A stretch of DNA of 64,000 nt. Origin: Stenocarpella maydis (taxonomy: Eukaryota > Ascomycota > Sordariomycetes > Diaporthales > Diaporthaceae). The notes beneath the pieces are model-generated. The model made no database searches, had not been told where the DNA came from, and saw only the letters and a list, made by a program, of their open reading frames with translations. Where the stretch lies: positions 62,001 to 126,000 of the forward strand of contig NQMI01000080.1 of NCBI GenBank assembly GCA_002270565.1. Direction: 5' to 3'. The position numbers and the translations under genes were made by a program. Positions within the stretch are counted from its first letter, which is position 1. The number at the start of each line of letters is the position of its first letter. Positions 28,846-64,000 of this stretch are shown in pieces.

Positions 28846-29248
28846 TCCGGATATGAAGACCAACGAGAATGGAAGTAAAACAAAAGAGGGTGGGGTGGCA
28901 AGTATGTGTAAGCACCTAGGTATTTGTTGTGCAGGTTAGATTCTTAGGCTCGTCGCCTTGGCCACCCTAGGTTGACAATGCTGGGGGGGGGGGGCGCTGT
29001 AAGCCTGCCTGTAAGCCTGCCTGTAAGCTACGCTGGCGCCGTATTTTATCCCCACAACATTTCCTCGATGGCCGGGGCAGGCAACCCTTCTTGCCGCGCT
29101 GCGTTCGCTGTAAGCAGGGTGCTACAGTACTTACTAGTAGACAAAGCAACGCCAGAAGTTCAAATTTCAGGTAGATTGACTGGCACATCACCCTCGCACC
29201 CACGACCTCACATCGCCGCTCGTGCGCCCCAGACGCAGCGCAGCGACA
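28846..29248. promoter_or_regulatory. Shared upstream region, CCDC25-like / uL3m
   Basis: 403 bp divergent promoter. It has a G-run (28983-28993) followed by a GTAAGCCTGCCT repeat (three partial copies, 28998-29028). Nothing else recognised. Confidence 0.45.
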
Positions 29249-43399: not shown

Positions 43400-44600
43400 C
43401 TGGTTTATTAAATTTCTTGCTAAAGTTTATAATAATGTATATCCTTCCTTATTCGTCTTTTTAAGTAAGTTCTCTGCTTGCGGCATTATCTGAGGCATCT
43501 ATATGGATTTCGAATTCCTTCTCTAGGTTTGCTTCCTTAAGTATGGGGTCTCCTATAACCTTATCCTTAAGTATCTGGAAAGCCTATTATTTAGTATCTG
43601 TCTACCTAAAGGCATAATCTTTCTTAATAAGGTCTGTTAATGGTTTCGCGATATTGCTATACTATATAATGAATTATTAATAGAAGTTAGTATATCTAAG
43701 GAATGCTCTAATGTCCTTAATGTTTATAGGGGTTGGCTATTCCTTAATTACTTTGACTTTTCCTTCTTGTATTTTGATTTTTCCTGGTTTAATTATGTAC
43801 CTGAGGTAGTTAACTTTTTATGCGTACTAGCTATATTTTTCTGGTTCCACTAGGAGATTAGCATCCTAAAGTTTTTGGAGAACCTTTTTAATATATTCCT
43901 TATAATTATTAAGGTTTTCTAAGAAGATAAGAATATTATTTAAGTAGGTAATAATAAAGATATTAAGGTATTTACTTAAGACTTAGTTAATTATTTTCTG
44001 GAATAATATAGGTGCATTGGTTAATTTAAAAGGTATAACCATTATTTCATGATGTCTGTAGTGTGTTCTAAATGCTATCTTTTATTCTTTTCCTTCTTTT
44101 ATTTGGATAAGGTTGTATCTGTGCTTTAAGTTGAGTGCTGTAAATCATTTTGCTCCTCTAAGTTAGTCTTGTAGTTCCTTAATAAGCGGGAGAGGGTATT
44201 GGTTTTTAATTATAATATTGTTTAATTATTAGTAGTCTATATAAAGTTATAGCTTATTATTCTTCTTTAGTATAAAGAGGATTGGGTATCCGGCTAGTGA
44301 TTGTGATAGCCTAATGAATCTCTTTTAGAGGTTTTCATTAAGGTATTCCCTAAGTGCTTTAAGTTGTTCTTCATTAAGTCTGTAGATAGGCTTAAACTAG
44401 GGTATTATTCCGGGTTTTAATGGTATTTTATAGTCCTATTGCGTGTGTTATAGTAATATAGTATTAAGTTATTCCTGGAATACTTTCTTAAATTTATAAT
44501 AGTCTTCTAGTATTTATACTAGTCTATTGGTCTTATCTCCTTCTCTCTCTTCTTTTAGGTAAAGGAGGTATTATTGTATTTCTTATGTTGTATGCTAACT
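43400..44600 (-). pseudogene. Element 1 reverse transcriptase / RNase H remnant
   Basis: Reverse-strand reading at 44,095-43,985 gives the gypsy RT block KIAFRTHYRHHE.., MVIPFKLTNAP, LFQKIIN. Near 43,935 the catalytic YLDD box reads YLNN followed by ILIFLENL, with Asp changed to Asn twice. Stops interrupt the frame throughout. Limits are approximate. Confidence 0.8.
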
Positions 44601-47487
44601 AATTATATTGGAGTGACGATCTCTTGACTGGCTTTAGTCCTTCCGTAAGGTGCTTGAGTAGCCTAGTCCTTCTCTATCTTCCTGGAGTCAGGCCTTCTAT
44701 TCGCTCCCAGAGGTATCCATGGGTTCATTTAAGTGCATTACCCATTTGCTATCCTTAGTAATATAACTCCTTCTCTTGCTATTAATTGCAACCTTCTTCT
44801 GGGGAATAGTATTATCTTAAAAGATCTAGCTAGTAGTTTAATTAATTTGGGGATTATTTTTTCTTAACTAAAGTATTCCTAAGATTAACTAATGATTTGC
44901 TATTTTAATAATATTAAATAATAGTAATTCTATATAGTTATAAATCTAAACTAAGAAGGGATTAGTCTTTATATTAATAATTCCATTACCATAAGATACT
45001 TTAGTTCTATCTATTATATTAAGTCTATAGGGTTCCCTTTTTTTATGCTATAGTAAGTAATATTTGTTTACTACCTTTAGGGAAATGAAATTCCCTTATG
45101 CTCTACTATTAATGAGTGCTAAGCATGTGTGAACTCTTAGCTTAACCTAAACCGTTAGGTGGCTATAGTTACTCATTATTGCATATAAGTACCTTATGAT
45201 ATAGTTAGTTGCTGCCTGAGGTTTTATAAACAGCCCTTCTAGTTTTTTAACTATTTATCTGCAGCTATGACCTCCTTAATACTCTTAAGATTTTGCTTTA
45301 TAATGTTCTATAATTCTTATAGGTTATCAACTAGCTATTGCATATTGTGATTCTGTTCCATTGTTATTAGAGTTTTAAGCAGTAGCCCCTGCTATCTTAG
45401 TAGATACCAGTCTTGAGCTTTATTGAGTATATGCACCTTGCAGGTTAGTTTATTACAATTTGCCTATCCGTTAGGGTTCTGGAGGCATTTTAAAGGTATG
45501 CGGGAGTCTAGCCTTATTAGGGCGCATCCCATCTTATTATGTTTTTAGTATAGGTACTAATTCTTAAAATTATTACACTTATATATATATTTGATATTCT
45601 TGCTTAGATATTATTAGGAAAACCAGCCGTGCTTAGTTTTCTCCCTTATGTATTCCTTGCATCCATTATAAACATATAATACCCAAGAGATGTCTTTATG
45701 TTTATTATATGATAAACATATATATCCTACATCTCCTGGTCTCCTGTATTCCTGGGTAGGTTATCCTATAGTTTCTTTAAAAGGCCTCCCTGCAATTATA
45801 ACTGCTATAATATTAGTTCTTGGGGCTAGAAGGGGCGCTTATCTTAGGTAGTCTTACGGTTCCTTCTATTAGGTTTGTAGCGCAAGTAGGGCCTAAGGGA
45901 TAGGTTTTCCTTCTATCCTAGGGTTAATCTGTAGGAGCTCCTTCCTATTTCCTACCGCTAGGGTTCTTCCCTGCTTCTCTAAAGCATTCTTAGGAAACTA
46001 TCCGGTGGCCTTCTTATCGCTATAATAAGTAGTATAGCTATTATTAAAGCAAGTTATCCAACTGAGTAATGCATGTTCCTTTCTGGGGTTCTAGGGATTC
46101 TTCATTAGTAGGATAGACTACTATTATGCCTTATCTTTCTAATATTTTTTGCATTAGGACTTAGTGCATTGGGAGAAGTGTAAACTATTATAGAGGTCTT
46201 CCTTATTGAGGTTATAGAAGTTGCATCCTTTATTCAGGTCTTAGTCTGGGTATACCTGATACTGATTGTATATGGTTGTTCTATAGATATAGTACTTGTT
46301 TATAAGTTTCTATTGCAATTTGGACCTGGGTGGTCCTTGTGTATTATGAGTGGCTATACTAGCTTAATGGGTAGCTTTATTAGCCTATTGGGTTCCTTCA
46401 GGTACTAACTTCCAGTCCCTATTTTTCTTTAGAGCCCGGCATTCTAAGGCAAAGTATCCCATCTTATTATAGTTATAGCATTTAATGTTTTTCTTATCCT
46501 TACATTAAGCAATATCTAGTTTTATAGGTCCTGCATACTATCCCCATTAGGTGCTTGGCTTCTAATACTTCTTTTCTATATTAGATTTATACTTATAGAA
46601 TATAATTTATTTAGAAGTTCATTCTTTTTTTTCTAAGCGTTATTTATAAACTTTATTATTAATCTGGATAGCTATTTCCATATAGCATAAAAAATCATTA
46701 GGTTGGTTTATAACTTTACTAAGTTCATTCTTTACTTCATTTTTTAATCCGCGGTAGAATATGAATTTCTTTATGTTATTAGTATAGTTGATTTTAGTAT
46801 AAATTCGCTAGAATTCTGCCACATAGTTGATTGCTAAACTACGCTATTTGTAATTCGCTAGGTCTCTTTCTACCTGCTATTCTTCATTTAGGTCCTAAAA
46901 TAGGGACCTAAGGGCATCTTTATAGCCTTTATAGCTGCTAAAAATCTGCTACATTTTAAGCTTATAGGCTTTAAATGACTCCGCATTAATAAAGTTAGTT
47001 AGGTAGGGTTCAAACTAAGCTAAAGCTTATCCTTTAAGGAAAGAGAATATATATATAACTCTTTTTCCGCTAGGCTGCATATCTAGCCTATAGAAGCACT
47101 AATAGGCCCTAACCTATATTAAGTATACCTAAAGTTATCTAGTAGTCCCATTATAGGGGGCTGGAGTATTAAGCTTAATATATTCCTTTATTTGGATTGG
47201 GGTATTAATAATATTGGCTCCAGTTTAGAGAGTAATAATCTCCTATTAAAGCTGTTTAACTTCCATATTACATTAAGCTTAACCTTCCATAAGGAGGCGT
47301 AACTACCTAACCTTATTAACCAGTTCCTAGATATAGGAGTCTATAGTCTCATTATTAGCAAGTTCATCCAGCTTATAGAGAAGGTTGCAGGTAGGGGTAG
47401 TTATTCTAGAGTTTAATATTATAAAAGGTTTTATATATAATATTGCTTAAAGTTTATATAGCAATATATAAATAAGAGTTATTAAAA

Positions 47488-49661: not shown

Positions 49662-51542
49662 GGAGGGCTTACAGAAGCCCAACTTAATTCAATACAAAGT
49701 TGTCCAGACCATTGTCAATCGTCCCAATTCGCCTCAGAGCACCATACTGCGACCCTGCCGAAACACACACACGCTGAACTAAATGCTATTTTATAGCACA
49801 AATTCATCAGAAAGCCTCTAAATGGTTTCCTAAATAATCTTAATAGGAAAGATAGTTAGTAATAGGAAGATAAGGACTACTATATAGAATAATAATGAAT
49901 AATAGTAATTTAGACTGCTTAAGTACTAGAAATAATATTTAAAAAATAATAAAGACTTTATATAAGATAATAATGAATACAGAAATCCTAACAAAAGTCC
50001 TAAGAAATACTTAGGAAAGTACTAAACTATTGCGCCTAGTACTAGTATAACCAGGATTGCTATTATAGGAATACCTCTAGCACAGGCTGTAAAAGAACTG
50101 TAATAGCCTCTTATTAGAGGAACTGGAGATAAGGCCCGCCTCTAGCTATAGTATCCTAAGCATACTAAGATCTTATAGATCTTATATATCTAGTATGCTT
50201 ATTATATTTACTTTTAAGAAAAAGCTAGCTAATCTTTCTTTCCTAGAAGATTCTGCTTAGGACCCATTATAAAAACTTATAAGAACTTTAAACTTAGGTA
50301 TTAGAAGATTGCTAGCTATAATAAAATTAAGGCTTATATAATTATTAAACTTAATAGGGAGCTACTACTTAGATGCCTATAAGGACTTAATAAAGTATAG
50401 GCATATAAGTTAATTAAATGCCTTATCTATCCAAATGAGAAACTCCTCCTCTAGCATAAAGAATAGGGAACAGATAATAATTGCCTATAGAGGAATAATA
50501 GTTAATTATAGACTACTAGTCACTATATATAAGTTATAGAAGTTATATATATATTATTCTAAAAGTAGAAATTAATAAGAAAATACATAGCATATTTAAT
50601 AGTAGCACTTAGGGCAACTTTATATTACTAAGTATTATTAATAAAGATTAAATCATATAATATTAAAAGAAAGACACTTATAAATTTAGTATTATAAAAG
50701 ATATAAAAGTAAGATATAGAAATAAAGTAATTAATATAGAGACTAATTATTTACCTATTTTAATCTAAGGATATACTACTTTTATAACTTTAAATATTGT
50801 AAATATAGTATATTATAAAATAATTTTAGGACTTCTATAGCTATATACTATAGATATTTAAATTAATTAAACTATTAGCTAAATCTTTTAGGACAAAACT
50901 ATTTTCTAGAATAAGGTTGTAATTAATAATATAAGAAGGAGTTATATTACTAAGGATAGCAAATAGATAGCATACTTAAATAGACTTATAAATACTTTTA
51001 TAAGTAGATAGGAGATCTAGCTTAAGAAGAATAGAAAAGGATTAAACCTCTTAAGTACCTTATAGAAAGGCCAAAGTTAATTAGAAGATTATCACTCCTA
51101 GAAGTAAAACCTTAGTCTTTTATAAACTAACCCTTAGAAGCTCTAACTAACTAACTAATATACTATATACTAGTAATAAATATAGTAATACCTCCTCTAC
51201 TTAAAAGAAGAAAGAATAGAGATAAATATAAATAGATTAGTATAAATACTAAGAGAATATTATAAGTTTAAGAAAGTATTTTAAGAGAAACTTAATATAG
51301 TATTACTATAATATATATAATAGAATTATAAGATACCCTTAAAACTAGGAACTATACTATAGTTTAAACCTATCTATAGACTTAATAAAAAATAACTTAA
51401 GGCACTTAGGAGTACCTTAAAGAGAACCTTAAGAAAGGATTTATTAGATTATTATAATTACCAGCAAGATACTTAATCCTCTTTATATTAAAGAAGAATA
51501 GTAAATTATAACTATATATTAATTATTAGCAAGTTAATAATA

Positions 51543-51543
51543 N
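51543..51543. other. Undetermined base (N)
   Basis: Lies exactly where homology to the gypsy relic ends and the flank of element 2 begins; may mark an assembly join. Confidence 0.95.
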
Positions 51544-51642
51544 GATAATGAGTTCTAAGGGTAAAGGTTAATAGTTGTAGCAGCTTTTAAGTCTTAATAA
51601 TGCAAGTTATGCTACACTAATTAGAGATCAGCCGAGGTATAG

Positions 51643-51908
51643 TGTTCCGGGGTCTAGGGGAACCGGCATGTTTCGGAATCCGGAGGAAAACCAGCCTTGG
51701 CATCCCTCCCCCCCTCCAAGACTATAAGAAGGGGCCTTCCTGCGTTGCTTTTGAGAAATTTCTAGTCCTAGAGAATCAATCTTTTTATACCCTGTGAATT
51801 TATATCTATTAGATATATACATATATACTATAAAACTATTTCTTGTGCCCTCTTTTTCTGCCTCTCCTTTTTGATATCCTTTATTCCCCTTATAACTCTT
51901 CTATTGCA
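51643..51908 (+). repeat. 5' LTR of element 2
   Basis: Starts TGTTCCGGGG and ends about CTATTGCA. Aligns with 63749-64000 across GGAAAACCAGCCTT, the C-run, and CTTATAACTCT. This copy keeps more C and G. Confidence 0.88.
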
Positions 51909-54900
51909 TTAGGGGCTCCTCTTCTTGTTTTTTATGCTCCTCTTGGGGTGGTTGCTTGATTAGGGCTCTGGCAGAATGTGTGCCTTTTTGTGTGTGTGGA
52001 GGTTTTATTCTCTTACTCCCTCCTCTTTTGGGCCCGTTTTCACTAGTATCTGCCCTATAAATCAAACATGGGTTTCTTCAGCTAATAAGGTTTCTTCAGC
52101 CATTATAAAGTTCCTTAGCTTTTAGGCCTGGATTTCCTATTTTATTTATAAGGTTATCGGCTACTTTAGGGGAGTGAATTTTTATACTTCTGATACTATT
52201 TGATTTTGATTAGAGCTATAGCGCCCTCTCGCTCTTAATAGAGGATTTTGCTATTATGTGAAGGCTAGATTTACCCTCCTAAATCGCCTACAGTTGACCC
52301 AGTGGTAATAGGAGTAGGTATATATGAGGCTGGTCTGATCTTTATATTAAGCTAACTCTATTACTTTAGCTATATTTTAGACCCCCTTCCAGCATACCTA
52401 ATTTGGTAGTGAAGTATAGAACCTCTAGCCTAGCTATATGTTCCTAGAAAAGCTACTGAGGGATTTGTATTCTCGGGCCTTAGAAATTTATTCTGATTGG
52501 ATTTAATAGCATCTAATTAGGGCTTATTTTCTTAAAAGGAATATAAAGGATTAGTATTAAGAAGGTTTGGTGGATCCTAACCGCTTATATTATCTGAAAC
52601 TCTCTTGCCCTTAGATGTAGTACCTAAAGGTTTAGTATATTAATTCCCTAATATAGGTAAACTGGGTATAATAGAGCCCTGGTTTAATTGATTAGGCCCC
52701 TCTTTAGTTTTCTCTTTTAAGTTGTTATTATAACGTTTGGTTACCCTATTAAATACTATATCCAAGATATTATCTGATATTATATGATGTTGGGTTGGGT
52801 GATAGTGGTGCTGGATGTTACATGCTTCTATAGGGAGTTAAAGAGGTTCCTACCCTATTAATCGCTATCCTTTTGATTGGTAAGCTTGGAGCTTCTGCTA
52901 TTGTTGGCATCCCCTGCGGTTAGGATGGCTGGCATTAGTAGCATGAGGGTATTCTGAATATTTATATTATTCTCTCCTCTAGTTGCTTGCAGTTAAGTAG
53001 CTCCTGCCTGCTACTATGGTAAGACTTTATAGTATTTAATATAACCTTCTATACTAATATTATTCACTCTAATTATACCTGGTTATTCCTATATATATCT
53101 TAGTAAATTTTAAATAGTACTTAATATCTTTACTTCTTTTAGATATACTTAGTAGAGAGAAATATTTAATACCCTTAGATAGTACTTATATCTTGCCTCT
53201 TTAGAAAGCAGCTTTAGTATAGAGAAACATTTGACTTTACTGTTACTGCAAGGGACTAATTAAGACCTATTTACTCCTATATGCATCTTAGCAGACCCCG
53301 AATAGCACTTATGCTTTTGCCTTCTCTTGAGACCCCTGGTAGAGAGAAACATTTAATACCTTCAGATAGCACTTATACTAGGCCCTCTCTTAAGAATGTA
53401 AAGGTAGAGAGAAATATTTGCCTCCGTTGTTACCGCAAGGGACTGATTAAGACTTATATCCTCTATTTACCTAATAGAAGATGTTTATTCTGCTCCCCTA
53501 TTCACTGGAGGTTCTCCCTCTAGGGGAAGGGAGCAGGATATAGATAAGGCAAGGGGGCTCTCATCAAAGAAAGGTCCACCTTAAGGACGCTGGTCTCCTT
53601 AGGAACCTGCCCCCACCCCATCTGGGACCTCTAATTAGGAGCATTATACTCCTATACTACCCATTCAGGCAGCTTCTCAGCCTGTTATACTTTTAATACC
53701 CTTTGGAAATACTGCCCTTTGGGCCTTGCCATTTGTGCTTTAATTAACTCCGCGATTTAATGGAACTAATATCATTAAAGTTGTTAATTCGGTGGAGACC
53801 ATTGCCAACTAGTTCCAGTATCCATTGGATCAGGTACTTAGCTTATTCCTCCAGGTTTGCGCTACCTTGAGCCTAGTTAATGATGTTTATATGATTACTG
53901 CAGGAGAGCATGATTGGGTTGGTCAGAAAGGCCAGCTAATAGCCTACTACCAAATCCATAATGCTGCCTCTCATGCTAATCCATCTGAGGTAATTGATAT
54001 TATCTGGAGGAATTACCCTGCTAAAGATCTGGAAGCCTGGAAGTACTGGATTGCAACTTATAACTAGGTACTGGATTCCACTGATAACGGTCTGATCTTG
54101 CCAACCTAGCCGTTCTATTGAATCTTACTATCAACCCTGAAGAAGATGTTAGCCACCAGAAGTATATCTAATAAGGAGGCTAGAACCCATAACTAGAGAA
54201 CTTTTAAGATAGAACTCCTTTTTCTAATTAATAAGGAACTGGAGTACTCCCGTTAGGATGAGTATAATGATATAAGGGGGGCTGGTCTTATGACTCACCA
54301 TCCCCCTTCTATTCAGCTTATAAAGATACCTTACCTATAGCCTCAATCTACCCCAAGGACTATAGAATTATTAGTATAAACCCCCTCTTGCTTTAATTAG
54401 CCAGGATATAAGATTATCTAGAAGAATGTTTGGTTTAATGAAGACTCTTCGGTGGATGACTTGGCCTATAAGTTTGCCCAGATGGAGATTAAGTTTGTGA
54501 CTAAGAATAACCTTATGGAAAGCCTGCAGCCTGTATTGAATAAACTTGATGTAAATCAAGCGTATATTGATAGGGTGCTTAGCTATAATTAAAGCCGGGC
54601 TTGCTTAGGACTTAATGGCCCTAGTGCAATTACATCCTTAAACTTACTAGAAGCTGATTATAATTAGGAGGATGGTTTTACTGATGGATACTCTGAAGAC
54701 CATTAGTGGAATATATTTGAGCTAGCCTATTAATGGAACGGTAAGATTAGAAAGTGCTATAGATATAGCACTTCCTCTAATTATAGGGCCTACTAATACT
54801 CCAAATTGCTGGAACTCATCAAGCTCGGCCTAATCTAATCTCCTAGGTGGGAAAGTAACTCAGTGTTCCTTGGCTCTTAAGAGGATATCTGTAAAGGTAG

Positions 54901-55700
54901 GTCTGACTAGCTCAATCCTATAGCCCTAGCTTTCTATAGGGATATAGAACATTATGGCATTAAGAAGTTTGCTAGAGGCCGTCTGGAATTTTTGCTTTCG
55001 AAAGGAAGGACGGACTTACCTTGCATTTAGAAATATCAGTCTCTAATCGCCAATCGCCCCAAACTTAAGGGCGATATATCTCTTAGGGAACTAAAGAAGA
55101 TTTAGGACCCTGATCTAAGAACCAAAGTGAATTCCCTCTCTATAATATTAATTCCTAAACCCAAACCAGTATTTATTAGCAACAAAACCTAATGCATGGA
55201 AACTTTAGTACCCTTAATTGCTATAAATATTATAAAAAGGAAGAGAACGAATAAAGATAACCCTGATTGGGATATTAATAATATAATATTTAATACTAGG
55301 CCAGACTTAGAACCAGTCGTTAACTCCAACCCAAGATTACAGATAATTTCTAATGAAGAGGATATAATGCTAGAAATCCAGCAAGAGACTTCTATTATAG
55401 CTAGGGACGGGAAAAGTAAAACAAAGGGTGATCTAATAGGTCCAAGTAAGACCGAAAAATCAATTAAAGCTAAACCCAAATAAGGACCCCTAATCCCCCA
55501 GACCCCTAAAGCTAAGGCTATAAATGCCATCCTCACTATCTCAATTAAAATGCTAATTTTAGATATTCTCGCGCTTAACAAGACTAATGCTATTCTAATT
55601 AAAGAGCTCCTTACTTACAAGGATAATACCTCTCTTAATGAGTGGCCTTTCAAGCTAGTCCTAGATAAGAATGTGCCTTAAGCCATAGGTCCAAGACTTA
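51909..55700 (+). pseudogene. Element 2 gag region, decayed
   Basis: No long ORF survives. The longest clear stretch is 53825-54067 (80 codons: LVNDVYMITAGEHDWVGQKG, then WRNYPAKDLEAWKYWIATYN), which looks like a capsid segment. A Cys-containing stretch CLRCYRKG at about 53,420 and one at about 54,757 (KCYRYS) may be zinc-knuckle remnants. A 188-bp tandem duplication lies inside (53088-53463). Confidence 0.55.
53088..53463. repeat. 188-bp tandem duplication in gag region
   Basis: 53088-53275 and 53276-53463 align end to end (landmarks: CCTATAT, TAGAGAGAAA.ATTTAATACC, TGCAAGGGACT.ATTAAGAC). The first copy is more AT-rich than the second. Confidence 0.75.
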
Positions 55701-55749
55701 GTATAATCTCTACTTCATCTAAAATTAAATATAAGCAATACTTGAGCTC

Positions 55750-56275
55750 TAATTAAATGCATATCATTAGGTATAAGGTAAATTTAATATCATCTCAAAC
55801 TGCTAATATAGTGAACCATGGTTGCTATAAATCCACCTACCTAAACATTAGGATCGCTTTAGAGAGCTATAAGATCCTCCCAGCCCTACTAAATATAGGT
55901 GCTAAGATAAATCTTCTTCCTTTATCCTATTGCCGCCAGAATAAGTTATCCTATACTCCACTCTAAGATATAAACTCTACAGTTTATAATAGAGCATCAC
56001 TAGCACTAATTAGAGTAACTAAAAAGTAGGTATATATCAGCCACAACAGGATAAGGGCTATTTTCTTTATTATGGATAATAAAACACATAACACCACTTA
56101 TAATATCCTTTTAGGGATGCCTTTCTTTTTAAATATGAACTTAACTTTTAAGCGATTAAGGAGGTTCCTTTTTATATACATTACTCTTAACGGGTTGCAA
56201 GTAATATATGGGCTGGGGAGGAGGAACCAGAAGCCTTTCCAGGTAGCTGCTACTAAAGGTGCAATAGTTCCCTAA
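55750..56275 (+). pseudogene. Element 2 aspartic protease remnant
   Basis: At 55886-55907 the active-site region reads LLNIGAKINLLP where retropepsins have LLDTGA; Asp-to-Asn and Thr-to-Ile are both single transitions. The YNILLGMPFFLNMN block follows at about 56,100. Two open segments (55757-55966 and 56072-56275) are fragments of one frame. Confidence 0.75.
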
Positions 56276-56302
56276 AAATACCTTCCTTAAAGGGTAATAA
56301 TG

Positions 56303-56303
56303 N
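56303..56303. other. Undetermined base (N)
   Basis: Ambiguous base in the protease-RT interval of element 2. Confidence 0.95.
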
Positions 56304-56899
56304 TCCTCCTTCAGCCAGACTCCTCTAATTAGAGGCGGGTTACAATTAGAGCCCTAATGGACCCTCTTAAAACTAACCTTAGGTTGTCCTAAGATAATAA
56401 TATCCTTAGGAGCCTTTCAGATAAGGAAGCCAGAACCCTAGTGCTAAAATTTTTCGCCTCCTTTCTCTATATCCATAGGCCTAATATCCTATTAAGTTAC
56501 TCTAATTAGCAGTCTTTTATCCAGATGGGTGCACCCCAGAGACCTGCAACTTGATTCCATCTGGATTAAGAAAAGGGGGTAACTGCTCCAGCTATTAGGA
56601 CCCTATATAAAAGGGTAGGGGTAAAAGTCCACCCTATTGATAACTTTCCCTCTGATAGTACTATCCCTAAGGGAATTGTGAATTGGAAGCTAAGCTATAA
56701 GGCTAGGGTTAGGCATCTAATTGATGCTAGTAGAGGAAGCAAATATAACCTATGGATCAGACCCAGATTCTCCTCCATTTTAAGGGGGTCATGATTAACA
56801 CTAGAGCGCCTTCAGCACATTATTATAGGAAACTATAATGAGCTCTCTAATTAGGAAAAGTTAATGTTTACTTACCTCCTGGAGAATAGGGAAGAAGCT

Positions 56900-58320
56900 C
56901 TTGCGTGGGACTGGTCTTATATCTCCTAAATCAGTATAGATATTGCCCCTCTTTAGTTTATTAAGATAGTTCCTTACCAGGCATACTAGATGAAAACTGT
57001 TGAGCTCCCTAGAGCGTTAAGGGAGACTGCTATCAAAATGTTAAGGGAGTAAGAAGCTAGGGGCATAATTAAAGAATCCCATGCCCCCTATTAAAACCAA
57101 TAATTCCTTATTAAGAAGAAGGATAGTGGCTATTGGTTGATTAATAATGTCTCTAAGGCCAATTGAGTTATGATTAGAGACGCCTTTATTCCTCTAGCTG
57201 CTGATAAGTTTGCTAAGGAGTTTGCAATATATTAGGTTCTATCGCTCTTGGACTTTTTCTTAGGGTATAACCAGATTAAGCTGGAAGAGAAAAGCCGTGA
57301 TATTACTACCTTTGCAACTCCAATCGGGCTATTTCGATAGTATGGGCTGCCTATAAGAGCCACGAACTCAGTGGCACAGTTCATGAGATGCATGGTTTGC
57401 TTGTTTTACAACCTAATTCTAATAGTCTACCGCCCATTCCTTAACGATATTGCGGTAAAAGGGCTAGAGTCCACCTATAATAATCAGGAGCTTGATGACC
57501 TTCCTGGGGTATAGAGGTATATTGCAGAGTACATTAAGAACCTTAATGATGTGCTTTTTAATATAGAGCTTGCTAATAGTGCAATTAATGCTGCTAAATC
57601 TGAATGATGCAAAAAGCAGGCTGATATTATGGGTTATATGTGTGGGACTCTGGGCTGCTCTCCTACAGACAAGAAGATTGTTAAGATTAAGGAGTGGGAG
57701 ACCTATAAAAATGTCAGCTAGCTCCAATCATTTCTCGGCCTAATTAACTTTTACCAGATCTGGATGCCCTTTTACAGAATTATATTACGTCCTTTCTTCA
57801 ACCTGCTAAAGAAGGGTACTCTATTTATCTGGACCAAAAGCTGCTAGGAAGCTATAGACGCTCTTAAGTTAATAATCACTTTAAAACCCTACCTTATAAA
57901 TATTAACTACAATAGGGGAGAGATCATCCTTATGGTTGATGCAAGCCTGGACAGCTGGGGTGCTTACCTAATGCAGGTAAAAGACGGGATTCATCATCCG
58001 GTCTGGTATAAGAGTAGCTTATAGACTGCTGCTAAGAAGCTCTATAATGCAACAAAATGTGAGTATCAGGCTGTACTCTATACAATTAGACAGCTTCGGT
58101 TCTATATATATGGAGTTCATTTTATCCTAAAGACCAACTCAAATGTTCTTATTTAGCAGTTAAAGGGGTTAGCATCAGATATCCCTAAGGCCTATATTAC
58201 TTAATGGCTGGCTGTAATCAGGATATATAACTTCATAATCAGGCATATTAAAGGGGTTAACAATTCAGTTGCTAACTTGCTCTTAAGAAAACCTCCGGGT
58301 CCTTCAGATAAGGTAAACAG
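56900..58320 (+). pseudogene. Element 2 reverse transcriptase and RNase H remnant
   Basis: The RT reads LLDFFLGYNQIKLEEKSRDI, TTFATPIGLFR, ATNSVAQF and, at the catalytic box, YRPFLNDIAVKG (57439-57450), where FLDD is expected. RNase H begins EIILMVDASLDSWGAYLMQV (first Asp kept), with the downstream YGVHFILKTNSN. Stops stand at Gln/Trp positions. The FLDD-type RT belongs to a widespread fungal gypsy branch. Confidence 0.85.
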
Positions 58321-58499
58321 ATAAATTAAAGGGGATATTAAGAAATAGTGTAATGCTTCTCTTAACCCTATAATAGCTCCGATACCTTCTAATCAGATGC
58401 CATTACTTAAAGACAGTTATCAGTGGTTAAAGGAATCAAGGGGGATTACAAATTACCTCTACCGCGATATTCTACCTAGTCACCTCTCTAATCAGCAAT

Positions 58500-59400
58500 A
58501 AAAGGCTTTCAAGAAAAAAGCTCTTACATTTTCCCTTAAGGAAGGAGTGCTCTAACGGGAACCCAAGAAAGACCTCCCTAGAAGGAAAATTATAAACAAC
58601 CCTAATTTAAGAAAAAGAATCATCAGAAATACTCACGCTCCCCTTAATCACAAAGGGAGGGATACTACCTATTACTGGATCAGAGCAATATACTACTGGA
58701 AAGGGATATATACGGATATAGAAAAAGCGATTGCCAGATATCCTAAATGCAACAAATAAAACACCAGGATCTATAATAATAGGGTAATACCCACTACCCT
58801 AGGGCTTCCGTTTCTAAAAATTCATATTAATATTTAGCATTTACCCTCTAATTAGGGATATCAATACCTTATGGAAGGACATTATAACCTTACGGGATGG
58901 CCTAAGGCAATAGCTCTTAGGGCTGCTAACTTAAAGAACATCAAGCGATTCTTTATTAATAAGTTCCTACTTAAATAGGGCTTACCCATATTAGTAGTTA
59001 TGAATAGGGGACCTGAGAACCTTAGAGACTTTACCAAATACCTCAAACACCTCAGGGTGCATTAGATCAAAATATCCATATACAATCTTAAGGCGAACAG
59101 TATCATAAAACACAGCTACTTCAATATTACATCAGCCTTAAGAAAGATGCTAAATAGGGGTATAACTAGATGGAAAAAGATCCTTCCTTATATACTCTTT
59201 ACTAATAGAACATCCTTAAGGCGGTCGCACAAGAAGAGCCCATTCTACCTGCTCTATAGATTTAACCCAGTATTACCCATTAAAACGGAAATCCCTACCT
59301 AGCGGGTTTAAGCCTAGTCACCCCATATAACCTCCAATTAGGTACTAGAATGTTAACTGCGCTTATTACTAGACCTAAAATAAGATATTCTGCATGCCCA
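58500..59400 (+). pseudogene. Element 2 integrase remnant
   Basis: The zinc-binding end reads HAPLNHKGRDTTYYWIRAIYY, then CNK. The core keeps YLMEGHYNLTGWPKAIALRA and, near 58,995, VVMNRGPEN, where VVDGGPEN would carry a catalytic Asp. FTNRTSLRRSHKKSPFYLLY matches the conserved post-core region. Confidence 0.82.
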
Positions 59401-60025
59401 AAAGTTAGTTACTAAGCAAAGAAGAAAGGCAGCAGCTAAAGACACCCACCGGGAATTCTATAGACCCAAGCCTCTTATAAAAAATAACCTTATACTAGTT
59501 ATGGATAAGCAGAGGAAATCTAATCACTTATTATTCCAGAAGCTAACATATTAATAGTTCAGGCCTTATATCATTAATGCTATTAAGCCCAATAACATAT
59601 ATAAGCTAAGGACCCCTAATGAGATCCCTATTAACGGAACCTATCCCCCAATGCACTTAAAAAAATTCATCTATAAGAGGGGAATTTGGGAGCCAGAGGT
59701 ACCTTTTCTTTAGGAGGACAACCCTCCTAAAAGTTAACAAACTAGGAGGAAGCTATCAGAAGTAGCTAAATATAATGTCTTCCCAGATATACTAAACAAT
59801 ACACTCCATCCCACCACCCCTAATCAAGATAATAACAATTAATACCAAGACTAGTCTCTTCCTGGCCGGATGGTCCCCCAAGCATAGGTATACTCGGATA
59901 CAGACAGCTCATACAATTCAGACTTATTAGATTCAGCTAATCAAACTTAAAGAATAACACTACATATAGACATTCCACTTATCAACCCTAATAACCCCAA
60001 GCTAAAGGAATACAAATTCTAGGAT

Positions 60026-60073
60026 AAGATATAAAAAAGTTAAGATATAAAAAAGTTAAGACATAAAAAAGTT
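60026..60073. repeat. Three tandem 16-bp units
   Basis: AAGATATAAAAAAGTT at 60026, 60042 and 60058 (last unit AAGACATA..). Lies in the short spacer between integrase and the antisense ORF. Confidence 0.9.
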
Positions 60074-60237
60074 AAGATAACATTATATCTCTAATCAAAC
60101 AAGTATACTTCTCTTAGGACCACATGCAAGACAAAAATCATCAGTTCTTAATTTACTACCAAAAGAAGTATTAGCAACCTAAAAAACTGGATCCACCCCA
60201 GCCTTACCTAACCCTTCTAATCACCTTACAACCATAA

Positions 60238-61119
60238 CTAGAGATCCATAGGCTTATACTTGAACTTCCTAGGCATACATCCGGTAATCTCGCCCACAGC
60301 ATCCGCACGAGTTTCCTCATATCCTATCTTAGTAGCTGCCTCAATATACTTACCCAGCAAGAGCTCCAAAGGAGGCATATTTAAAGGCTCATTAATCAGA
60401 TCGGGACGCACATTAGTAATATAATCATAATTGCTCTCAGAAATCTTTAGCATCTTAAAATTACAAAGGTAACCCTCAATATAGTAGACACAATTAGCAC
60501 AAGCATCATCTTAAAATCCTTAAAGCAATCAGCACTCAAAGAAAGGGATCATAATAGGGACGATACCTCAGAGAGTTATTCGGTTGCAATTAGCCCCCAT
60601 CCACCGCATACAACAGTCGCACGGGTTCACATTACAACAACCAAAGAAGGCAATAAGGAGAGCCAAGCCCCAACGAAGGTCATTCCCCTAGCACAGTTGA
60701 AACATATACTTCTCATAAGGGCCACCATTTATATACTCAACAAAAACATCATTCAGACCTCCTTTAATCAGAGTGCTAAGGTAAGACTATAGGTACTTAC
60801 AAGCCTCTAGGGCTTTCAGGAAGGGAAAGAACAGTTTAAGCAGCTCAGATTTACATATTAAGGAGAGGGTCCACAGGACATAAAGACCCTTACCTCTACC
60901 CTTAAGGTTATACATCTTAATATTCATTGCAAAGGCCTTATGAAGCGGTAATTCATGGACCTAGTTTCATAAAAGGATTACATTTAGCTGGAAACAAGTG
61001 TAGATGCCCTCTTCGTAAATAGGAGGAGGATTGTACGTTTCAAAGACCCCAACAACAGGAGGTAATTGCTCCTTACCCTTTCCCTTCTCTTCTTAGCTCA
61101 ATTAAGGAGGAAAAGACAT
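60238..61119 (-). pseudogene. Antisense cysteine-rich ORF in element 2
   Basis: From ATG 61119 to TAG 60240 one frame of 294 codons runs with no frameshift, broken only by stops attributable to CAR, CGA or TGG codons. It reads SELLKLFFPFLKALEACKYL, FVEYINGGPYEKY, a Cys cluster CCNVNPCDCCMRWMGANC, a second cluster CANCVYYIEGYLC, and an intact last 71 codons (60453-60238) ending FKYKPMDL. The two clusters suggest zinc binding. It is antisense to pol, placed like the antisense ORF of element 1. I know no function for such proteins. Confidence 0.7.
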
Positions 61120-61560
61120 AGTGATAGCAAAGCTCATCTAATCAGAAAGGCTTAACAGTTTAATAACAAGATTAATAATTAATAGTTAACAATGCTATTA
61201 GGGGGAAATTGAAGAAAAGGATTAATAAGGGGGAAAGCAACTTTAAATACGAAAAATTGGAGAGGGGAGCTCTTATCAGAAGCATTCAAAGCAGCAAAGG
61301 TTGCTACCTAGCAGAAAAAAAAAGGAAATTAAGTGATTCACTAGCTCGAGTAATTCACCCATCTTGAGGCTCCCCTTCTAATAAAAGCCCACCTTTCTGC
61401 TATAACCTCTAACCCAACTACTTCTTCCACAACTACCACACCTCAGCTAATCTCTAATCAGCACAGCACAACTTACATCATCAAGACTCAAAAGCTACTA
61501 TAACCATCAACCTCTACCCTCAAAACTCATCACCTCCCCTCCATCACCTAATTTCTCCTT

Positions 61561-63660
61561 ACCTTAGCACCCTTTTCCCCAATCTAACTAATCAGAAAGA
61601 TATCTTCCTCAAGCCAGCAAACAACAAAGAAAGGTAAGGGAAAGAAGAAGGGATCCCCATTAATCCAGTTTACAACCATCAACAGTCCAAAAGGCCAAGT
61701 CAGCCCCATGAATAATCCCAACGCCCCTATGCCTACTATCGAGTACCCAAACCCTTCTAATCAGGTTAGCCTTAAAGCACGACTTTTAGCATTGCCCTTT
61801 ATCACAAATTTTAATAATATTAACCCTGCGTAGCAGCTAAGATTTCCCAACCCATGCAACATCCGCAATTAAGGAAACTAGGATCACAAAGCTAGTACAG
61901 ACCCAATAAAAGACCCATTTGAAACCAGAATCCTTAACAACAGGTTAGCACTCTCCCAAGCTTTTAACATATCAAACCTTTTAGTGCAACCACCATTCTT
62001 TCAGAACCAAAAATAGGGGTATAGTAATTATGCACAGCAGGTAGTGAACATATATTTTAAGGGCGTCAATCCCTATCCTTAGTTTAGAGACCCCCCTAGG
62101 CAGAAGAACCTATTTGGCACTCACTATAACGACTTCCTTATAACCCTTTATAATGCAAAAGGTCTCCTAGCTTAAGAGGCATGCCTGCATACTGATTATG
62201 TTCTGGGGCTTATTAATTAGCAGCTAATTGATTTTAGCAACCTAATCTTTATAGTGCCCATAACCTATAATATCAATGGAGAACCCCCCAGATCATAAAG
62301 ATACCACTTACTAAAGAACAGCTAGAGGTTCATTATTTAAGTTATATATACCCCAGGCCATTAGGTATTAAGCATCTTCAATAGGGATACCAAACAACTT
62401 AATATAATCAATACTCATCCTAATCAGAGAACTTATAATAGGATATACCCCTATATAAGGGACTGCATTGTATACTTCCTTACCCTTAGGCTACCTAAAG
62501 GATTCTTAAAATAGGCATGTATGGCAATCCAAGTGAAGGTTACGCTATAGCTGGGATTAACTACCTGTGGACTCCTTATGGCTACCTATATTGCCTTTTT
62601 CTTCCGGGAGAATTGTGGAAAGAATGGCTGGGAGTTTAGAGACTGGATTAAGATTAGGCTACTTAAATCCGCCCCTTCTAGCTTGCCTACTAAGAAAGCC
62701 TTAGCTCTTATTTAGGGTTTTGCTATTTAATTAGAAATTAATAGATCCAGGCATCCAATTAGGGGCATCCAGAATACTCTAGTTATCAGCTATAATAAGT
62801 ATAAGAGGCTTATAGCAGGAAAGAATATTATATACTCTCAAGCCGATATCTTAGGGATAAATAAGGGGGAGACTAAGTATTACGCTATACCCAATGTAGG
62901 ATCAGAACCGGGATAAAATCTGCTAAGCTTCCTTATAGCAAGATTTAATAAGGCTGATCTTTTAAGGCCTACTAATGTTTGGACTTCTAGGTTAAGCAAA
63001 ACTCCTATTACCCCTAATAGCTTAAAGAACCAGCTACCTATCCTGATATTTAAGATACCTGGTGCGGTTGTAAAGGATCTGATTATGATATCTGGGCTTG
63101 GATTTCATAAGGACCCATCCAAGATACTTGAGCCTCTGCCTCAGGCAGATAGGGCATAGATATATGGAGAAGATGGTCTTGGGATACCGAGTGAAGCGAG
63201 AACTACTCTACAGACGCCTAATCGGAACAGGGCCGGAACGCTATAGGGTAACCCTATTAAACTTCTCTTACAGTAGATGTTGGAGGCAAGCATCAGGAAT
63301 ATATCCCCAAGAGGAAACATAAATATGGGTGGGATAACCCCTAAGCAATTAGGTATCTTAAGGTCTTTATTATTATCTCTATCCTCTATTCCAGTTACAC
63401 CACTACCACATTGCCTATCGCCCGCTGCAATGAGAATCATAATGATTTAGGAGTATAATTAGAATGCAAGCAAGTGGGTGGGGACTGAGGAAGCGAATTA
63501 CTAGGTTCCCATACCAGCAATTAGTAACAGCTATTAATCCTAGGCTTATAAAAAGGCAGCTAAGCAAGAGGAGAAGGATTACAGACCGAGCATACTATAG
63601 CAGAATAAGAGTAGGGATAAGCGGGCTAGGAATTAAGAGCTATAAAGGGTTTAATAGAGC
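61561..63660 (+). pseudogene. C48/Ulp1-like cysteine protease ORF in element 2
   Basis: One frame of about 700 codons stays in register from about 61561 to 63660; the only interruptions are TAG/TAA codons explained by single transitions. A basic N-terminus (KKGKGKKKG) leads to a protease-like domain at about 62,100-62,640. The catalytic His is in YTPGH (62359), followed by TAG where Ulp1-type proteases have Trp. Asn stands 17 residues later (62410), where Asp is expected. A TAG (62548) stands at the expected Gln, and Cys in TTCG follows six residues later (62566). These spacings equal His514-Asp531 and Gln574-Cys580 of yeast Ulp1. The about 320 residues after the protease match nothing I know. 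It could process a polyprotein or act on SUMO-like proteins; both are guesses. Confidence 0.75.
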
Positions 63661-63748
63661 TAAATTTGGGTGGCTTGTTTGAAGAGGAGGAAAGGATTTT
63701 GGTATTTTAGCGGATTATTGCTTGTTTTTTATAATAGTTGGAGAGGGG

Positions 63749-64000
63749 TGTATTCAGGGTTTAGGGAAACCGGTATATTTTGGAATCTGAGGAAAACCAG
63801 CCTTAGCATTTCCCCCCCCCCCCCTCTTAAGACATAAGTAGGGGTTCCTGCATTACTTTTAGATTTCTTTAAGGAGGGAATTAATCTTTTTTACGGTTTG
63901 CTTTTTTATATCTATATAATATATATATATATGTCAGAATCTTTCTTATGCCCTTTTTCTTCCTCTCCTTTTTAGCACCCTCTATTCCCTTATAACTCTA
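63749..64000 (+). repeat. 3' LTR of element 2 (truncated by window end)
   Basis: Starts TGTATTCAGGG directly after the polypurine tract. Differences from the 5' copy are mainly T for C and A for G. The last about 10 bp should lie beyond 64000. Confidence 0.88.

Follow-up and report, generated by a model that had tools for sequence, protein, structure and literature searches.

Several kinds of mobile element carry Ulp1-like (C48) cysteine protease domains; our statements about them, and about the literature in general, refer to the available excerpts of the papers cited. NeSL and Utopia-1_TSP of nematodes are retroelements with such a domain at the N terminus of the element protein, but they are non-long-terminal-repeat (non-LTR) elements of the endonuclease type (PMC4640811). 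Ginger1 DNA transposons combine a Gypsy-type integrase with a protease domain of the Ulp1 or OTU type; they lack LTRs, however, carry the protease as a fusion with the transposase, and are found in animals such as hydra (PMC2836005). C48 peptidases are also present in Mutator elements (cited in PMC2836005) and in the CryptonF and CryptonS elements of oomycetes (PMC3212892); a reading of the DNA described here without database searches (the sequence-only reading) had already pointed to plant MULEs and some Cryptons. Crypton and Mutator elements are tyrosine recombinase or DDE DNA transposons, without reverse transcription. Here we describe a Ty3/gypsy-type LTR retrotransposon of the fungus Stenocarpella maydis that almost certainly carries an accessory gene for a Ulp1-like protease (clan CE). 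The element lies in a 64-kb stretch of DNA (the window; positions 62001-126000 of contig C291), and the gene is at 61600-63663 of the window, on the + strand.

LTR elements with other accessory genes have also been described. Retand, a Gypsy element, likewise has an antisense accessory gene, thought to be regulatory, in a long region that separates pol from the 3' LTR, but it is found in plants, its antisense gene is mostly TRP28 instead of the DUF3716 gene of our element, and no sense open reading frame (ORF) with a known domain is described there (PMC11963269). In fungi, BcGypsy1 of Botrytis, with brtn, is an LTR element with an additional ORF (PMC8365987). Fungal "complex transposons" have many additional domains, but the survey that reports them explains these by multiple insertions into one locus (PMC3248453). 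No C48 or DUF3716 gene is named for BcGypsy1 or the complex transposons in the excerpts of these two papers, and "Ulp" is absent from the main text (as distinct from supplementary Figure S1) of the survey, "LTR Retrotransposons in Fungi." In our searches of a collection of PMC papers (a scope separate from Repbase and subscription journals), no title or beginning of an abstract among the matches listed describes an LTR element with its own Ulp1/C48 gene. SUMOylation affects the transcription of Ty1 in yeast (PMC8585004), yet no LTR element bearing a SUMO-protease-like gene was among the matches listed either.

Our best explanation for the locus, with a probability of roughly 0.5, is a Ty3-type element, mutated by repeat-induced point mutation (RIP), with an accessory protease of Ulp1/SENP fold that acts against host repression. 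The place of the gene inside the LTRs, the gene order, the copy number, the catalytic residues, and the fold of a relative are directly supported.

The protease gene inside the LTR element

The sequence-only reading had placed the protease-like frame within an LTR pair of a Ty3-type element, downstream of integrase and on the same strand, and this placement holds. By aligning both ends of two copies of the element, we set the limits of the 5' LTR (TGTTCC...GTTTTCA) at 51643-52042 and of the 3' LTR at 63749-64144, both on the + strand; the window ends at 64000, within the 3' LTR. Self-comparison of the window gave a direct repeat at 51650-52046 and 63757-64148. The LTRs are about 400 bp, and the whole element is 12.5 kb. 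On the outer sides of the LTRs is a target-site duplication, ATAG, at 51639-51642 and, beyond the end of the window, at 64145-64148. The 3' LTR starts 85 bp past the stop codon of the protease gene; between them is the polypurine tract GGAGAGGGG (63740-63748, + strand), which adjoins the LTR. The primer-binding site, which was located by comparison with a copy on contig C254, is at 52044-52078 on the + strand (end points counted by eye) and is mutated in the window. Because the LTR pair, the ATAG duplication, the primer-binding site, and the polypurine tract could all be located, the frame at 61.6-63.7 kb is inside a complete LTR element, not beside one. Direct LTRs with TG...CA ends, the short duplication, the primer-binding site, the polypurine tract, and the order of the domains in the C254 copy (aspartic protease, reverse transcriptase, RNase H, integrase) are features of the Ty3/gypsy type (Metaviridae).

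The window translates from 61561 as 713 codons, with stops. In the C254 copy, the frame is open (703 codons from stop to stop) and encodes 687 amino acids. Alignment to this copy puts the start codon at 61600, where it is lost in the window, and the stop codon at 63661-63663. Both copies show, in one frame, the His...Cys-Gly pattern that had been noticed in the window: H-stop-x15-N ... stop-x5-C-G in the window and HW-x15-D ... Q-x5-CG in C254. The catalytic residues span 62359-62568 on the + strand (first codon bases: His, 62359; Asn/Asp, 62410; stop/Gln, 62548; Cys, 62566). With stops allowed as Gln, shuffling of the window frame produced the motif by chance in 36 of 20000 trials; for the open copy, the strict form arose in 1 of 20000 shuffles and the loose form in 43 of 20000. 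Given these counts, finding the motif once, in a frame picked from 64 kb of sequence, is suggestive but not decisive.

The stops and the Asp-to-Asn change had been attributed to RIP-type transitions in an intact parent gene, and the C254 copy bears this out. Aligned over 11689 internal bases, the two copies differ at 1709, and 1689 of these differences are C>T or G>A. Within the protease frame, there is no indel over 2109 bases, and all 30 stops in the window copy are at Trp, Gln, or Arg codons of the open copy and are due to RIP-type changes. These comparisons support a protease frame that was open before RIP. RIP-type changes affected 910 of 1647 CpA sites (0.55), 581 of 1128 CpG sites (0.52), 106 of 1757 CpC sites, and 92 of 1604 CpT sites (0.06 for each of the latter two). 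CpG was thus changed nearly as often as CpA across 52043-63748, unlike in classic RIP, which is CpA biased.

The genome (53.5 Mb assembled in 312 contigs) has copies of the element at about sixty or more sites. A DNA search of the genome with 61561-63660 gave at least 42 match rows (the best 40 of 149 candidates were scored), and a protein search with X at the stops gave at least 66 rows at 64 places (best 64 of 200 candidates scored). Just one of the 66 protein rows is free of stops: this is the C254 copy, in which an open Gag-Pol is followed by an antisense frame and then the protease frame.

The antisense frame encodes DUF3716 (PF12511) and adds a feature beyond what the sequence-only reading had described. 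In the window, the gene is at 60229-61119 on the - strand; in C254, it encodes 297 amino acids within a frame of 331 codons, and the profile match is above the cutoff (E = 4.9e-06). A DUF3716 row on the opposite strand lies no more than 2.5 kb upstream of 58 of the 66 protease rows, including 47 at a distance of 441-457 bp, and none of the 66 has DUF3716 upstream on the same strand. The two genes are read divergently from a spacer of 480 bp (61120-61599, by mapping of the gene ends), which is a possible promoter region. The 91 bp to the left of the 5' LTR (51548-51638) resemble, in inverted orientation, 61440-61530 in this spacer (80%).

The copies do not suggest an element that lacks the frame, with the frame outside its LTRs. 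We compared 30 protease loci from the DNA search, including the window copy, with flanks of up to 1.5 kb. LTR sequence is present 3' of the gene in 28 of these loci (in four, the stretch is just 75-107 bp); at L023 the contig itself ends, and no LTR sequence follows the gene at L026. DUF3716 sequence is present upstream in 27 loci (all but L016, L032, and L033). A pol row was found within 9 kb of 22 of the 66 protease rows, a figure that is low at least in part because the pol search scored the best 64 of 222 candidates. Downstream of 67 pol rows, we found DUF3716 in 50, the protease in 28, and neither in 14. We inspected two of these 14: both contigs end less than 2 kb past pol, and one of them still includes part of DUF3716 and the beginning of the protease gene.

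Relative to C254, the protease genes of the 30 loci have 10158 transitions and 25 transversions in 61829 sites. The copies are therefore nearly identical in this gene apart from RIP, which suggests a recent burst of the element. Transversions are commoner in DUF3716 (37 in 21517 sites; 25 loci) and in the LTRs (48 in 9228 sites; 24 loci). On this count the LTRs, which have C and T runs, fit a recent burst less well. A test for selection by codon position among the copies was useless, with so few transversions against so many transitions. A second copy with lower GC content follows the open copy head to tail (L036, C254:40786-43000 and on) and apparently shares an LTR with it; we rejected a 2.2-kb LTR at this site, which is an LTR of about 400 bp and then the second copy.

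Relatives and fold of the protease

Like Ulp1, Ulp2, and SENP of the host type, the element protein has the His-Asp-Gln-Cys layout, its spacing, and, to judge by a relative, the fold, but identity in the structural alignments with Ulp1 and SENP is 9-16%, and on both sides of the protease core the element protein has long conserved N- and C-terminal regions, which have no Pfam match. We identified seven protein relatives (34-42% identity), one of them named from Diaporthe sp. PMI_573; a repeat of the search with an alignment returned the same seven. In the eight aligned sequences, the residues are in the order and spacing of clan CE, with His, Gln, and Cys in all eight and Asp as the acid in six. 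Three of the seven relatives pass the PF02902 (Peptidase_C48) threshold, profile matches in the PDB are to SUMO proteases only (Ulp1, SENP1, and SENP2), and the predicted structure of one relative, P0001, has a Ulp1-type fold. Pfam misses both the window frame and the open copy, and our assignment rests on the relatives, the conserved residues, and the fold.

Several observations count against this assignment or against SUMO as the substrate. The expected match to the Pfam C48 profile once stops were masked did not appear: neither the window frame (three frames) nor the open C254 copy has a Pfam match, and neither do four of the seven relatives. A phmmer comparison of the open copy to the PDB gave nothing at E values up to 1, and the E value of the PDB profile match is weak taken alone. 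In two of the eight sequences, the catalytic Asp is replaced by Asn. The structural model that resembles Ulp1 is of the relative P0001 and not of the window protein itself. The mean predicted local distance difference test score (pLDDT) of the P0001 model is 50; block means reach 80-89 only at residues 191-260 and are 72-76 at residues 261-280, which bear the Cys. Foldseek ranked poxvirus I7L core proteases first, beside SENP2 and Ulp1, with low whole-model TM-scores (0.17-0.25). A NEDD8 protease ties with Ulp1 structurally, so the fold cannot separate SUMO from NEDD8 or ubiquitin.

The sequence-only reading had allowed for either a captured or an ancestral gene. An old gene fits better than recent capture because the relatives are at 34-42% identity and because of a pair of JGI proteins: P0004, a relative of the protease, and P0011, a relative of DUF3716, each have a longest contig of 12776 bases. 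They probably share one contig, in which case the accessory pair is kept in another organism. P0011 is one of four relatives of the DUF3716 protein (42-44% identity, among 884 candidates). Across all five sequences, the cysteines of the CDCC, ECR, and CANC motifs and one His are invariant, and the cysteines may bind zinc. In the genome, DUF3716 accounts for 131 match rows, including many fragments. We set aside the predicted structure of this protein (mean pLDDT, 32.7), and no paper in the PMC collection that we searched names DUF3716.

Elsewhere in the genome, five further PF02902 matches are free of stops (L001-L005) and are probably Ulp-type genes of the host. An hhalign alignment to one of them, L003, had a probability of 2.3 and left the catalytic core unaligned. 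No relatives were confirmed in IMG/VR or GTDB contigs, and searches of PHROGs and Rfam gave no match.

Gag-Pol, primer tRNA, and surrounding sequence

The Gag-Pol frame (53456-60034, + strand) contains stops in the window and is a single open frame of 2195 codons in C254. We rejected a broken pol in the C254 copy, as the open frame crosses the edge of two sequence stretches. Gag has one CCHC zinc knuckle, near 54755. Pfam matches on the C254 copy, mapped to the + strand of the window, identify an aspartic (retroviral-type) protease (PF13650, E = 4e-05; 55880-56128), reverse transcriptase (PF00078; 57110-57640), an RNase H-like domain (PF17919/PF17917; 57830-58228), and integrase with an H2C2 zinc finger (PF17921; 58598-59278). 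The reverse transcriptase and the integrase also have PDB matches: the top match for the part from reverse transcriptase to integrase is Ty3 Gag-Pol (E = 2.8e-52), and PFV integrase was matched as well. Pfam gave no match for the 602-residue Gag part or for the integrase core (rve) of this copy. Between the 5' LTR and gag, within 53069-53463, is a direct repeat of about 208 bp (one repetition, 72%).

In C254, the primer-binding site (L037, about 29090-29124) is complementary over 35 nt, including the untemplated CCA, to the 3' portion of the host tRNA gene L041. This is unusually long, as such matches are usually 8-18 nt. The same 3' part is found at L042, without a gene call by ARAGORN. ARAGORN calls L041 as Asp(GTC). 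By eye, however, the anticodon loop of both L041 and L042 reads GTG, with an intron, so a tRNA for His is more likely.

GC content is 45-67% in the first 39 kb of the window and mostly 25-40% beyond. In the first 44 kb, 29 frames of at least 220 codons were listed, and eight of the nine that we scanned have Pfam matches, including Rrn6, a protein mannosyltransferase, and an SPX-ankyrin protein. Together with the RIP-type changes and the relative from Diaporthe, these genes point to a fungal genome. An inverted repeat of about 950 bp (44209-45112 and 50596-51549; 69% identical) ends close to the 5' LTR of the element and is perhaps another mobile element.

Possible roles of the accessory protease

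The protease may counter silencing. Its source would be either the RNA of the element itself or transcription from a promoter in the spacer, and its targets would be host chromatin or transcription factors by which the element is repressed. From these it would cleave SUMO or a related tag; de-repression would then raise the transcription of new element copies. The divergently read DUF3716 protein may target or assist the protease. In budding yeast, inactivating Ubc9, or both Siz1 and Siz2, raises Ty1 RNA, as does ulp1 mutation, and the authors ascribe the rise to less SUMOylation of cellular factors (PMC8585004). A SUMO protease made by the element could mimic that state. However, yeast Ulp1 that is held at the nuclear pore restrains Ty1 (PMC8585004), so it is not certain in advance what an added protease would do. 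Overall, we put deSUMOylation of host repressors, as the job of the protease, at somewhat less than even odds. A more elaborate proposal, which we consider doubtful, is a fungal Ty3-type family with a two-gene counter-silencing module, in which a Ulp1-like deSUMOylase and a zinc-binding DUF3716 protein would strip SUMO from repressors and drive bursts before RIP shuts the element down.

Alternatively, the enzyme might be a deubiquitinase or deNEDDylase that stabilizes the element's proteins or its integration complex and does not act on SUMO. This is rather unlikely: the sequence profile favors Ulp1, SENP1, and SENP2 only, but weakly. A slightly poorer candidate is maturation of the element's own Gag, Pol, or DUF3716 protein, comparable to the maturation of virions by the clan members of adenoviruses and poxviruses. 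The first rank of I7L and the location of the gene on the Gag-Pol strand are consistent with this role, but the PDB profile matches are confined to SUMO proteases, and Pol already has an aspartic protease, the type of enzyme that usually does this job in Ty3-type elements. With maturation of Gag-Pol thus provided for, processing of Gag-Pol by the second protease is less likely, and host proteins are the more likely substrates of that protease.

LTR elements do transduce host genes, but a captured passenger gene without a role is improbable: proteins at 34-42% identity to the protease retain long open frames, with catalytic residues that are invariant, and the arrangement of the accessory pair is kept in 58 of 66 rows. 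We give hardly any weight to the nesting of an independent mobile element downstream of pol and before the 3' LTR. Nesting would fit with the 22 of 66 protease rows that have pol nearby (in a search that scored 64 of 222 pol candidates) and with the 14 pol rows without either accessory gene downstream, but the 3' LTR begins just past the stop codon and the polypurine tract, LTR sequence follows the gene in 28 of 30 loci, and both of the inspected pol rows from that group of 14 lie on contigs that end less than 2 kb past pol.

If the enzyme is active, an attack by a retroelement on the SUMO system of its host becomes directly testable. The accessory pairing also gives DUF3716 a context.
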